This document shows positions 70 to 6,323 of a stretch of 53,078 bases of DNA, piece after piece. Source of the stretch: Thermoguttaceae bacterium (GTDB taxonomy: Bacteria > Planctomycetota > Planctomycetia > Pirellulales > Thermoguttaceae); contig JARKPK010000116.1 of the NCBI GenBank assembly GCA_029975295.1, positions 1 to 53,078 on the forward strand, in the 5' to 3' direction. Numbering within the stretch: position 1 is the first letter of the stretch; the number at the start of each line of letters is the position of its first letter. The position numbers and the translations under genes were made by a program. The notes beneath the pieces are model-generated. The model was given only the letters and a program-made list of their open reading frames with translations, was not told the DNA's origin and ran no database searches.

Positions 70-903
70 TCAGCCTGCCCCGATCAGCGTGCGCAAGTGT
101 TCCAAGCTGCGCCGGGCTTGCTCGACCGTGCCGCATTCCACGCTCAGCACGATGTCGCGCGGAGCGCGGCGGCAGATGTCGATCACGCGGGCCCAGTCGA
201 TCACCCCGTCGCCGCATGCGCAGCCGACCGGTGTGCCGGTTACTTTGCCGCGTTCGGCCTCCGATTGACCGACCGAGATGTCCTTCGCATGCAGGTGGAC
301 GAGCCGATCGACGACCGATTCGAGCCAGGGATAGGGATCTTCGCCCGCCAGGAACGAGTTGCCCGTGTCGAAGTTGATGCCTACGGCAGGCGATGGGACC
401 AGCCGGTAGATGCGGTCCAATCCGGCCGGCGTTTTGCTGTATTGCTGGTGCGGCTCCAGTCCGATGAGGATGCCGCGCAGCTCGGCCGCCGCGGCCGCTT
501 CGTGCAGCGTGTAGCGCATCAGCATGTGGTCTTCCTCGACGGTGGTCCAAGCGGGCTTGGGGCCTTCGTCGGTGTTGACCACCGGCGCGCCGCATTCGGC
601 CGCAAACCGGATGGCGTGCTTGAGGTATTCGACGCTGATCTCCGGTTTGCACAACGGCGTATGGGCCGACAGGCCCGAGAGCTTCACGCCCGCCCGTTCC
701 GCCGCCCGTTTCACTCGGTAGGGATCGTCCCAAAGCGAAACGCTGTGGAAATAGCCGGCCTCGCTCAGCAGCTCGCGGCCCCAATGGACCATCGGCTCGA
801 TATACTCGAAGCCGAGTTGAGCGGCCTTCTCGACACCCCATTCGAACGACTTGTCGTCGTGACGGACGAACTCCATGTTCACGCCGATAGCCAGTTTGCC
901 CAT
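70..903 (-). CDS. Sugar phosphate isomerase/epimerase-like TIM-barrel protein
   Basis: A 277-residue protein of the xylose-isomerase-like TIM-barrel superfamily (AP endonuclease 2 / sugar epimerase type). The likely metal set of this fold is visible: E150 (in GLEPHQQY), D179 (GINFDT), H205 (HLHAKD) and E246 (SVECGT). The family isomerises or epimerises small sugars, inositols or keto sugars; the substrate cannot be told from sequence. The frame stays open to 1182, but I chose the ATG at 903 because AAGGGGAA lies 6 bases upstream and the conserved N-terminus (MGKLAIGVNMEF) begins there. There is no signal peptide, so it is probably cytoplasmic. A loop with two cysteines (VGCACGDG) follows the histidine motif. 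It stands alone, divergent from lipA. Confidence 0.85.
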   Translation of the reverse strand: MGKLAIGVNMEFVRHDDKSFEWGVEKAAQLGFEYIEPMVHWGRELLSEAGYFHSVSLWDDPYRVKRAAERAGVKLSGLSAHTPLCKPEISVEYLKHAIRFAAECGAPVVNTDEGPKPAWTTVEEDHMLMRYTLHEAAAAAELRGILIGLEPHQQYSKTPAGLDRIYRLVPSPAVGINFDTGNSFLAGEDPYPWLESVVDRLVHLHAKDISVGQSEAERGKVTGTPVGCACGDGVIDWARVIDICRRAPRDIVLSVECGTVEQARRSLEHLRTLIGAG

Positions 904-1773
904 GACGATTCCCCTTTTCGGTTCGGGTCGGTAGGTGCGTTGCGTTCTGTTTTGTTGAGGCTGCGGTGGGTTTTCGGGTTTGATTCGTCGACCGTCCGAC
1001 GCGCAATGGATCAGTTCATTCCCCGGCGGCCCGTGGGAGCAACGCCCGGGCGGCCGGCATTGGCCCCGCGGGCCGAAATGCTGCGTGTCGGCGGTTTGCC
1101 CCACGCCCGGCCGTCCGATACGATAACTGCATACGGAACTTGCAGACGCATCGTGTGCCGCGCTGGGAGGCGCGAACCGCACTGGAGCTTCCCGCAGGAA
1201 GCAGCGGCGGCCGACGCATTAGTTTACGGGCCGTCGGGGCGGCAACGCAATCGACACGGCGGCCTGAGCCCGATTTTCGCCTCCACAACTTCGAGGGAGC
1301 AACATGCGCGGCACGAACGGGGCATGAATGTTGCCATCCTGGCGCGCACTGTGCGCACGGCGGTCGGTGGGTGGCCACTGCGCCAGCAGAACTGCTCGGC
1401 AAGCTTCGATGGGGTGGCCGCGATAGCTCCGCTATCGCGGTGCCCTAAGGCACAAGAGGTCGCTAACTCGTGCAAGCGGATTGCGTGTACGACTGACTGA
1501 TTACTTGCACACCTCTTGCCGCTTGCGCGGCCGGGATAGCAAATAGCTATCCCGGCCACCCTTGAGCGTCGTGTTGGATCCACCGGCTTCGTCGTGTCCG
1601 TGTGATTACGTTGCCGCACCGCTTTCATCGGGCGACGTGCCCGAAAAGTTCGGCCGGAAGGAGTTGATCAGCGCCCGTCGTTTGCTCAGCGATCAAACGG
1701 CGGCAATCGGTGTTCTCGCACCTTTGGTTCCCAATCGACCTTGTTTTCCAGTTATTCGAATCCGAATCCGAGT
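904..1773. other. 870-bp intergenic region between divergent genes
   Basis: No credible gene in either direction. The open frames here have no family resemblance and arginine/alanine-rich, shadow-like composition. The region must hold the promoters of the divergent isomerase-like gene and lipA; I saw no strong -35/-10 pair. Its notable content is the multi-palindromic element at 1413-1560. Just before lipA is a short direct repeat of GAATCC. Confidence 0.6.
1413..1560. repeat. 148-bp multi-palindromic REP/MITE-like element
   Basis: The ends are 15-base inverted repeats with one mismatch (1413-1427 and 1546-1560). Inside are: a perfect 10-bp hairpin with loop TCC (1418-1427/1431-1440); a 5-bp hairpin (1440-1444/1449-1453); a nested stem of CAAGAGGT (1453-1460) with ACCTCTTG (1511-1518) enclosing GTGCAAG (1470-1476) with CTTGCAC (1504-1510); and a perfect 12-bp hairpin with loop AAATA (1529-1540/1546-1557). 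This resembles REP/BIME or a non-autonomous mobile element. I saw no second copy in the window. Confidence 0.6.
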
Positions 1774-2727
1774 ATGTCGGCCAAAACCGATCCGCTTCGA
1801 ACCGATTCCGCACCCGCGACTGAAGCGCAGGCGCATGCCCCCTGCGGCGCGGCAGGTGTCGTTGCCCACGTGTCGGGCAGTTCGGGGCTGCCGCGCTGGC
1901 TGAAACGGCGGGTGCCCAAGGGCAATGCGAACCACTACACCGCGCGGCTGTTGGCCGAGTTGAACCTGGCCACCGTGTGCGACCACGCCCGATGCCCCAA
2001 CCGCATGGAGTGCTACGCGCGGCACACGGCCACGTTTCTGCTGCTCGGTTCGGTGTGTACGCGGCAGTGCCGGTTTTGCGGGGTGAGCAAGGGCCGGCCC
2101 GAGCCGCCCGATCCCGACGAACCGCAGCGCGTGGCCGAGGCCGCCCGGCGGTTGGGGTTGCGGCATGTGGTGCTCACCTGCGTAACGCGCGACGACCTGC
2201 CCGACGGCGGCGCCGCGCATTTCGTGCGGACGATTCAGACGGTGCGTCGGGCCGCCGAGGCGGCGATCGAAGTGCTGCCCAGCGACTTCGGCGGCAACCT
2301 CGATGCCGTCGATCTGCTGCTCTCGGCCGAGCCCGACGTTTACAACCACAACGCCGAAACCGTGCCGCGGCTTTTCCCGTTGGTTCGCGGTCCGCAGGCC
2401 AACTACCGCCGCACGCTGGAGATGTTCCGCCACATTCGCCGCCGCCGGCCGACGATGCCGCTGAAAACCGGGCTGATGCTCGGGCTGGGCGAAACCGACG
2501 ACGAACTGCTCGACACATTAGTGGATTTGCACCAAGCGGGCTGCCGGCTGCTCACGTTGGGGCAGTACCTTCGGCCCGGCACGGCCCAAACGCCCGTGGC
2601 CCGCTATGTTCCGCCCGAGGACTTCGAACGCTGGAAGCTGCGGGCCGAGCGCATCGGCTACGCGCACGTGGCGGCCGGGCCATTCGTCCGTTCGAGCTAC
2701 CATGCCGCAGAGATGCTGGCCGAATAG
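1774..2727 (+). CDS. lipA: Lipoyl synthase
   Basis: Radical-SAM enzyme that inserts two sulfurs into protein-bound octanoyl groups to make lipoyl cofactors. The 317-residue protein carries both iron-sulfur motifs of the family: the auxiliary cluster C69-x4-C74-x5-C80 (CDHARCPNRMEC) and the radical-SAM cluster C95-x3-C99-x2-C102 (CTRQCRFC). The C-terminal RSSY (306-309) holds the serine that ligates the auxiliary cluster. The frame is open from a TTG at 1741, but the ATG at 1774 gives the usual N-terminus; no clear ribosome site precedes either. Its natural client in this window is the E2 subunit encoded at 48410-49798. Convergent with the lipoyl-like gene; no lipB is adjacent. Confidence 0.95.
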   Translation: MSAKTDPLRTDSAPATEAQAHAPCGAAGVVAHVSGSSGLPRWLKRRVPKGNANHYTARLLAELNLATVCDHARCPNRMECYARHTATFLLLGSVCTRQCRFCGVSKGRPEPPDPDEPQRVAEAARRLGLRHVVLTCVTRDDLPDGGAAHFVRTIQTVRRAAEAAIEVLPSDFGGNLDAVDLLLSAEPDVYNHNAETVPRLFPLVRGPQANYRRTLEMFRHIRRRRPTMPLKTGLMLGLGETDDELLDTLVDLHQAGCRLLTLGQYLRPGTAQTPVARYVPPEDFERWKLRAERIGYAHVAAGPFVRSSYHAAEMLAE

Positions 2728-4577: not shown

Positions 4578-4862
4578 TACTGCCTCGAATGTGTGTCGCG
4601 CCGGCTTGTCTTTCGGCCCGCATCGTCCGCCGCGGTTGCACTGGTCGCAAAGGGCGCCCGAAGCTGCGGCCGCGGCGCGCCTTCGGCGGTGTCTTGCTTC
4701 TTCGGCCGCAGACGCCTTCGAACCAGCAACTCTGATTCCCCCGCTGACGCACGCACGACCGGCCGCGCGCCTGTGCGGCATCCAGCCGCAAGCATCCGAC
4801 CGCAAGCAGCCAACCGCAAGCGTCAAACGCGCTGCGTCAAACGATCGGCAATCGCGGCGCAA

Positions 4863-6323
4863 CTACTCCGTGCCGCCGATGGGGAACTCCACCGGGTCGC
4901 CGGCCTTGCGCAGCTCCTCGGCCAGCAGCGCACGCATTTGGGCAACACGCTGGGCATGTTCGGGCCGAGCGGCGAGATTATCCATTTCCCACGGGTCGGC
5001 TTCCAGATCGAAAAGCTGCGTGTGCCGCGCACCTTCCACCCGATACTCGATCAGCTTGAACCGCCCTTGGCGCACGGCCCGCTGCTGCTGCCGATAACCG
5101 GCAACGATCTGCTTGCGTCCCTTAGCGCCGGCGCCTTCGATGATCGGACGGAGGCTCTCCGCGTCGCACGGCGGCGGCTGCGCGCCGGCCCAATCGCACA
5201 CAGTGGCGAACAGGTCGTGTAGATACACCAGCGCGTCGCTTCGGCCCGCGGGAATGCCCGGCCCGGCCGCCACCAGCGGCACCCTCAGGCTATGGTCGTA
5301 AAGGTTCTGCTTGCCCATCAGCCCATGTTGACCGACAGCCAGCCCGTTGTCGCCGGCGAAAACGACGATCGTATTCTTTCCGAATCCGTTGGTTTCCAGC
5401 GCGTCGAGCACGCGGCCGATCTCGCGATCCAGGTGCGAGATCATCGCGTAGTAGTCGGCGATGTGGCGGCGGACTTCGTCGGCCGGCCGGGGCAGCGGGG
5501 CCAGCAGTTCGTCGCGCACCCGCAGCTCGCCGTTGTCGAAGGGATGCTGCGGCAGGAAGTTCTTCGGCAGTGGGATCGCAGCCGGGTCGTACATGCGGGC
5601 GAACTCCGCCGGAGCGGTCCGCGGATCGTGCGGCGAAGTGAGCGAGAGATAGAGGAAGAACGGCTTCGGGCCGCGATGCTCGCCGAGCAGCCCAACGGCC
5701 GCATCGCAGAACAACTCGGTGGAATGCCGCTCGACGATCCGGGGTGGGCTCAGAGTGCGCTGGTCGGTCAGGTCGCGGAGCGGCACGCGATACTGGTCGC
5801 TCATGCCGCCGAGAAAGATCGCCCGGGCCTTGTCGAACCCGCGGATCAGGCTGGGCGCTTTGTTGTGCCATTTGCCCACGGCATAGGTGGCGTAGCCCGC
5901 ACCGCGCAGCACTTCGCCCAAGGTGGTTTGGCCCGCCAGGTCGTCGTCGGCCCGCCACAATCCCCGCCCGCTATGGAGCATCGCCCGGCTGGGCACGCAC
6001 ACGGCCGGCTGCGTGCTGCCCATGATATAGGCGTGGGTGAAGGCAAAGCCGCGTTCGACGAGCCGATCGATCCGCGGCGTGCGAATTTCGCGGTTGCCCA
6101 AGGCGGCGATCGTGTCGAATCGCTGATCGTCGGAAAGGATCAGCAAGATGTTCGGCCGATCGGACGTAGGCGACGTTTCCGCCCGGCCCGACCGCGCCGC
6201 GCGCTCGACCGCGGCAGACGATGCGGATTGCTCCGCCGAACGCGCCGCGGCCGCAAACAGGCCGGCGCCAACCGCGGCAACGCACACAACGCCGCACCAT
6301 CGGACCGAAGGGAGTTTTTTCAT
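4863..6323 (-). CDS. Exported formylglycine-dependent sulfatase
   Basis: A 486-residue type I sulfatase of the iduronate/N-acetylglucosamine/choline-sulfatase superfamily. It has a signal peptide (MKKLPSVRWCGVVCVAAVGAG, cleaved near ARSA), the N-terminal metal motif PNILLILSDDQ (D65, D66) and the C-x-P-S-R motif at C109-R113, whose cysteine is converted to formylglycine. C-terminal motifs include FAGDNGLAVGQHG and KQNLYDHSLRVPL. It should remove sulfate esters from polysaccharides outside the cytoplasm; the substrate is not evident. The ATG at 6323 is chosen over upstream codons because the signal peptide starts there and AAAGG lies 10 bases before it. An agarase-like hydrolase (34648) shares the window but not the locus. 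Confidence 0.93.
   Translation of the reverse strand: MKKLPSVRWCGVVCVAAVGAGLFAAAARSAEQSASSAAVERAARSGRAETSPTSDRPNILLILSDDQRFDTIAALGNREIRTPRIDRLVERGFAFTHAYIMGSTQPAVCVPSRAMLHSGRGLWRADDDLAGQTTLGEVLRGAGYATYAVGKWHNKAPSLIRGFDKARAIFLGGMSDQYRVPLRDLTDQRTLSPPRIVERHSTELFCDAAVGLLGEHRGPKPFFLYLSLTSPHDPRTAPAEFARMYDPAAIPLPKNFLPQHPFDNGELRVRDELLAPLPRPADEVRRHIADYYAMISHLDREIGRVLDALETNGFGKNTIVVFAGDNGLAVGQHGLMGKQNLYDHSLRVPLVAAGPGIPAGRSDALVYLHDLFATVCDWAGAQPPPCDAESLRPIIEGAGAKGRKQIVAGYRQQQRAVRQGRFKLIEYRVEGARHTQLFDLEADPWEMDNLAARPEHAQRVAQMRALLAEELRKAGDPVEFPIGGTE

Follow-up and report, generated by a model that had tools for sequence, protein, structure and literature searches.

The window analyzed here, a stretch of 53,078 nucleotides from a Thermoguttaceae bacterium (contig JARKPK010000116.1), contains a palindrome-rich element located between two divergent genes, both supported by Pfam matches, which encode a xylose isomerase-like TIM barrel protein and a lipoyl synthase-like radical SAM protein (Table 1). 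An earlier reading of the sequence (the original prediction) had placed the element at positions 1413-1560. The element is real, but it is one base wider on each side and extends from 1412 to 1561. It consists of two facing units of a 48-50 nt repeat, with their heads outward and a spacer of 52 nt in between. In each unit, a GGGT[A/G]G head is followed, in this order, by hairpin 1, hairpin 2 and a CAAGAGG tail. Copy A has the head GGGTGG and the second hairpin GTGCC-CTAA-GGCAC, and its base 1440 is able to pair in either hairpin 1 or hairpin 2. Copy B shares both head and tail with copy A, but differs in hairpin 2 (GCCGC/GCGGC), and the stem of its hairpin 1 is GGGATAGC/GCTATCCC.

Table 1. Position of the two REP copies, of their parts and of the flanking genes in the window.
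Feature	Position	Strand	Evidence or remark
REP copy A	1412..1459	+	71.7 bits with covariance model R1 (E 1.1e-15, search of the window)
GTGG guide-type tetranucleotide of copy A	1414..1417	+	sequence; abuts hairpin 1 on the 5' side
Hairpin 1 of copy A, 10 bp, 3-nt loop	1418..1440	+	sequence, DNA fold, covariation
Hairpin 2 of copy A, 5 bp, CTAA loop	1440..1453	+	sequence, RNA fold, model, covariation
CAAGAGG tail box of copy A	1453..1459	+	model R1
Spacer between copies A and B	1460..1511	.	inner 7-bp stem 1470-1476/1504-1510
REP copy B, head at 1561	1512..1561	-	model R1, 61.9 bits, E 2.6e-13
GTGG guide-type tetranucleotide of copy B	1556..1559	-	sequence, model R1
Xylose isomerase-like TIM barrel protein, flanking gene outside the element	70..906	-	PF01261, E 7e-29
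Lipoyl synthase-like radical SAM protein, flanking gene outside the element	1774..2727	+	PF04055, E 8.4e-19; PF16881, E 7.7e-7

The stems described in the original prediction were all recovered. The terminal inverted repeats, given there as 15 bases with one mismatch, measure 17 nt with 94% complementarity (1412-1428/1545-1561), and the perfect hairpins of 10 bp (1418-1427/1431-1440) and 12 bp (1529-1540/1546-1557) are present. The 5-bp hairpin (GTGCC-CTAA-GGCAC, 1440-1453) and the 8-bp stem in the middle (CAAGAGGT/ACCTCTTG, 1453-1460/1511-1518) can be read directly from the sequence, and the 7-bp stem nested inside the latter (GTGCAAG/CTTGCAC, 1470-1476/1504-1510) is also found. One hairpin had been overlooked, namely the second hairpin of copy B itself (GCCGC-GCAA-GCGGC, 1531-1518 on the - strand). 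Given this additional hairpin, the element is made of two equivalent units. Such a density of stems had been judged unlikely to arise by chance, and in fact the RNA fold of 1413-1560 gave a z score of -6.4 and the DNA fold of 1412-1561 a z score of -7.4, with none of 200 shuffled sequences being equally stable in either case. The full-length fold and the terminal hairpins had also been proposed to be mutually exclusive. This holds for the extended terminal pairing of 15-17 bp, which competes with hairpin 1, but the heads can pair despite the hairpins. The predicted DNA fold of the + strand combines head-to-head pairing, tail-to-tail pairing (AAGAGGT/ACCTCTT) and all four hairpins simultaneously, and therefore the two states are not strictly exclusive.

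Multiple copies of the element, as expected for a repeat, were found in the genome (5.01 Mb in 190 contigs), where blastn returned 28 alignments, two of which are the window itself. The covariance model R1 was built from the 44 units of alignment A1, which come from six source genomes (three of 47 distinct units were dropped, two being artefacts and one an extension of a unit already in the set). The search of the genome with this model gave a moderate number of places, 34 at E ≤ 0.1 on 18 contigs including the two of the window, and 30 of them reach E ≤ 1e-5. Five pairs have their heads outward, i.e., those in the window, on contigs C95, C14 and C174, and around a transposase gene described below; the remaining close pairs are tandem. 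Four of 30 units carry a hairpin 2 of the B type, and each of these partners an A-type unit with heads outward and a spacer of 52-142 nt. The C95 and C14 pairs have a common spacer and part of one flank in common, and in another genome (G004) a pair with a near-identical spacer recurs beside a transposase gene. A query spanning the spacer of the window element (1456-1515) found nothing else in the genome at E ≤ 1, leaving movement of the window copy itself a supposition. As for extragenic position, open reading frames of at least 250 aa span 10 of 24 repeat loci and 338 of 480 control sites nearby, although in GC-rich DNA such a test is weak.

The repeat was detected at E ≤ 1e-4 in at least 56 of 196 genomes of the order. 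A sequence unique to its genome and absent from relatives had been named as the outcome that would speak against a repeat family; on the contrary, at least 55 of the 195 other genomes in the order sample contain it. In the class sample it is present in at least 45 of 148 genomes, at least 27 of these being outside the order, and in the phylum sample in at least 7 of 199, at least three of them outside the class. The three scans scored no more than 30 to 41 matches per genome, so that high counts per genome are lower bounds and positive genomes can be missed, as in the case of G030, which is positive in the class scan and not in the order scan.

The original prediction had suggested looking for a Y1 transposase of the RAYT type. 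The genome contains three Y1_Tnp genes, one of which is bracketed by inverted copies of the repeat. This gene (C178:4775-5284) encodes a protein of 170 aa, P0001, and lies between repeat copies at 4642-4689 (+) and 5291-5338 (-), whose heads point outward. The upstream unit differs from copy A of the window only in the loop of hairpin 2. P0001 matches the NCBIfam model NF047646 (REP_Tyr_transpos) with 113 bits, the cut-off being 80, and the IS200 model with 34.7 bits, which is under the cut-off of 55 bits. The closest solved structure is 4er8, TnpA-REP (E 0.0002). The 22 members of alignment A2 all share His60, His62, Trp110 and Asn135, and nearly all have Tyr131. P0001 therefore has the properties of a RAYT: the HUH motif, one catalytic Tyr and the REP_Tyr_transpos profile. 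Among the residues that contact GTAG in the E. coli enzyme, W94 and Q95 are kept, whereas E100, H101 and R104 are replaced by Ala116, Phe117 and Tyr120, according to an ungapped alignment to 4er8. In the text of PMC6006769, the contact residues of E. coli are described as not all strictly conserved, so they do not define every subclass of RAYTs.

Alignment A2 comprises 22 of 31 loci of the P0001 clade. Loci L109, L116, L119, L122, L123, L125 and L126 were omitted for brevity, and L053 and L113 were excluded because their genes contain stops. In these two loci, the RAYT gene with in-frame stops still lies between units (L053) or beside units (L113), showing that decaying REPtrons exist. When named genomes were scanned with P0001 alone, no matches were obtained; when they were scanned with alignment A2, the best 80 of 316 relatives were kept. 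Among the matches listed, the named clade loci (L127-L133) comprise five from planctomycetes, one from a "bacterium" and one, partial, from a Desulfarculales (L132). According to the model, the unit is present at each of the seven, and these labels fit a planctomycete as the host of the window element.

The repeat accompanies this clade of enzymes. The model matched within 450 bp of the RAYT gene at each of the 38 clade loci examined, 29 having units on both sides and nine on one side, whereas it gave no match at E ≤ 0.01 at 95 loci of other Y1 transposases, the other two of this genome among them. The structure is thus tied to the enzyme. Clade copies that are broken or incomplete (L054, L055 and L067) were kept out of the set of 38 along with further fragments, and three loci of the set (L048, L049 and L052) come from source genomes of model R1. 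At the 29 two-sided loci, the nearest units have heads outward in 17 cases, tails outward in seven and the same direction in five. A strict, model-free pattern test detected units on both sides at 16, on one side at seven and on neither side at eight of 31 clade loci. With the same pattern, none of 22 other Y1 loci was positive and no unit appeared over 20 rounds of shuffled flanks. As for the seven named clade loci, the pattern was found on both sides at L128, on one side at L127, L131 and L132, and not at L129, L130 and L133; in the named genomes, none of 13 other flanks and none of 73 other loci read whole contained it.

At the level of whole genomes, the clade enzyme was found at E ≤ 1e-25 in 24 of the 196 genomes of the order. 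The repeat is present in at least 22 of these 24 as compared to at least 34 of the 172 without a clade RAYT (Fisher test 5.6e-12, uncorrected for kinship). Without five model-source genomes, the figures are at least 19 of 21 and at least 32 of 170, respectively (Fisher test 9.7e-11, again uncorrected for kinship); the sixth model-source genome, G005, is absent from the listed genomes of the order sample. Two genomes with a clade RAYT, G121 and G171, gave no repeat in the genome scan, and have weak matches at their RAYT genes (L116, L112 and L125). The presence of the repeat in at least 34 of 172 genomes without a clade RAYT at E ≤ 1e-25 would have to be accounted for by gene loss, a more divergent RAYT or incomplete assemblies.

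The units from different genomes allowed an analysis of covariation. In alignment A1, 78 double-change cells were counted, in both hairpins, as compared to 20.3 in shuffles, and the covariation score was 0.377 as compared to no more than 0.086 for slid partners. The number of pairs with a double change and that of further pair types were reached by 65 and 101 of 500 shuffles, respectively, and hence show no clear excess. In the 116 matches at transposase loci, double changes occurred in 13 of 14 pairs and 374 cells were counted as compared to 90.2; no measure was reached by any shuffle, in an alignment that was fitted to the model and is hence biased towards it. The hairpin structure is under selection, with compensatory change in both hairpins. 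Among the 108 distinct units at RAYT loci, 90 contain GT[AG]G (GTAG in 24, GTGG in 66), and the tail opens with CA in 98. A pyrimidine precedes the head in 49 of 59 units of one set and in 73 of 108 of the other, a share too uneven to yield a firm target rule. At nine loci (L050, L051, L053, L076, L107, L111, L113, L116 and L123) hairpin 1 is much longer, giving units of 85-88 nt in which head, hairpin 2 and tail are kept.

A strongly folding sequence about 210 bases 5' of the lipoyl synthase-like gene might also be taken as a structured RNA leader or attenuator of that gene. However, no Rfam family reached its gathering score in the window, and the lipoyl synthase loci of 17 relatives, some with short upstream flanks, gave no model match at E ≤ 1, whereas the locus itself gives both copies and the family occupies its 34 places on 18 contigs. 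A lipoyl synthase leader RNA is thereby largely refuted, and we consider it extremely unlikely. The window element is very probably a mobile repeat rather than a gene-regulatory RNA. The mobility could be that of a MITE belonging to an ordinary DDE or IS200/IS605 transposon, as inverted termini, dispersed copies and the match of P0001 to the IS200 model might suggest; nevertheless, that match stays under its cut-off while REP_Tyr_transpos is above its own, and the units both flank the gene in inverted orientation and occur gene-free at many places, which, in a search that covered the Y1 genes, leaves a MITE next to no probability.

Gyrase binding is among the roles credited to REPs. The units might thus be REPs that are now immobile and kept for host functions, such as gyrase binding, formation of mRNA ends or termination. 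In the text of PMC3733652, roles of this kind, gyrase binding aside, are credited to REPs elsewhere, and the covariation indicates that the structure is maintained. On the other hand, this structure follows the enzyme (38 of 38 clade loci vs. 0 of 95 other Y1 loci), and the window copy lies between divergent genes, where a terminator scan of 900-1800 gave a single site, at 1709-1722, outside the element and at chance rate. We regard retention for host functions by immobile units as improbable, and note that host functions are compatible with mobility. No sigma-70-like sites were found in 900-1800, and no tRNA was found in the window.

The REP/BIME reading put forward in the original prediction was correct, because two places found by the model bracket, heads outward, a RAYT gene on another contig. 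A REP is defined in the text of PMC6006769 by a tetranucleotide, GTAG or GTGG, that is followed after 0-2 nt by a fully paired stem measuring 7 bp or more, and here GTGG at 1414-1417 is followed by a stem that starts at 1418. The arrangement of a REPIN, i.e., inverted REPs with guides outward and a short spacer, is seen in four dimers and in the RAYT bracket of this genome, and that of a REPtron, a RAYT flanked by inverted copies of one REP, is seen on C178. The element at 1412-1561 is therefore very probably a REPIN, that is, a non-autonomous single-strand-DNA element mobilised by the cognate RAYT of C178, the chemistry of which we infer.

The REPtrons of E. coli (Y and Z REPs) and Pseudomonas (REPINs), in which REPINs or BIMEs are combined with a RAYT, resemble the present system in several respects: GT[AG]G at the foot of the hairpin, inverted dimers with heads outward, dimers of two REP subtypes, a RAYT flanked by inverted REPs and more than one RAYT/REP pair per genome. 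Dimers of unlike REP units are also known in enterobacteria, according to the text of PMC3733652. The difference is that the units described here add a second hairpin and the CAAGAGG tail box. REPs are described in the same text as palindromes of 20-40 bp; ours, with two hairpins in 48-50 nt and relatives of up to 88 nt, depart from a single palindrome of this size, which is a usual description and not an exclusion rule. Di Nocera et al. (2013; text of PMC3733652) mention GTAG repeats of a planctomycete, R. baltica, genes for tyrosine transposases that have repeats at their flanks, and double-palindromic flanks or TIRs at some RAYT-like genes; the R. baltica repeats were compared with our family by this description. 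The string AAGAGG is absent from that text, figures aside. The text of PMC6006769 describes a class 3 of TnpAY1, found mainly in Planctomycetes (11 of 24), Acidobacteria and Proteobacteria, and attributes to this class and to subclass 2.6 "atypical secondary structures" without the GT[AG]G consensus. The units described here, unlike those of class 3 and subclass 2.6, possess GT[AG]G, and P0001 has DHVH, WQ and YMHANP where class 3 has NHVH, W[TA] and YV..EQ, in a comparison of motifs only (Table 1 of PMC6006769). No description of a two-hairpin REP with a CAAGAGG tail was found in the literature text searched, which mostly leaves out subscription journals. REPs, REPINs and RAYTs are known; as far as this text goes, and figures of PMC3733652 aside, a constant hairpin 2 and CAAGAGG as parts of a REP are apparently undescribed.

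In the text of PMC8266576, the Y1 REP transposases assayed (from E. coli, S. maltophilia and Marinomonas) are reported to bind a single-stranded hairpin and to cut at CT, with GT[AG]G serving as guide. The Marinomonas enzyme also cuts at CA, which only positions 2 and 4 of GTAG read; with a GTGG guide, CA cutting persists less efficiently and CC cutting is allowed (PMC8266576). By analogy, the units of the window element would fold when the region is single-stranded, for instance in the lagging-strand template. The RAYT, with its HUH motif and catalytic Tyr131, would then dock on hairpin 1, take GT[A/G]G as guide and cleave at a nearby dinucleotide, and might thereby move or copy the segment between both heads. 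The likeliest site of the cut would be at or near the CA that opens the tail, since CA is read by guide positions 2 and 4 alone and it is position 3 that varies here; a CC site is also conceivable. Unlike partners in a pair (A and B) may keep the two sets of hairpins from forming a single long cruciform.

More tentatively, the clade may represent an order-wide RAYT lineage (class-wide, judging from the repeat) with a bipartite REP, in which hairpin 2 and CAAGAGG would be obligate and would place the CA cut, and the guide would be read by residues (Phe117/Tyr120) other than those of the E. coli type. We hold this to be possible, although somewhat doubtful. If true, the reading of a bipartite REP would be a distinct mode of recognition among Y1 single-strand transposases. 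One set of probably intergenic repeats is now tied to one transposase clade, and the choice of the cut site directed by the guide becomes testable in a further lineage. The 108 units, with a near-constant head, a near-constant tail and free hairpin sequences, constitute natural covariation data that point to the parts the enzyme should read.

The genome also contains a second REP-like system. The Y1 gene on contig C85 (locus L031) is bracketed by a different repeat with a single hairpin (GGGTGCCACTGCCGG...), whose copies (GGGTGCCACTGCCGGCTTGNCCGGCAGTGC) are located at 1480-1509 (+) and 2176-2205 (-). This repeat carries, by inspection, GTGC at the guide position, and its family counts 38 copies in the genome at up to two mismatches, the control giving none. 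As many as 22 of the 34 two-hairpin copies have a member of the C85 family no more than 200 bp away, in 20 cases on the same strand, as compared to about 0.3% expected at a random spot. Such neighbours, found on C14, C17, C44, C103, C157, C159, C174 and other contigs, are composite repeats from two RAYT systems; the window element is not among the copies near the C85 family. A palindrome, GGGTGCCACGGCGGGCTTGTCCCGCCGTGC, recurs near several repeat copies (in the flanks at L004 and L005) and looks like a sub-variant of the C85 family.
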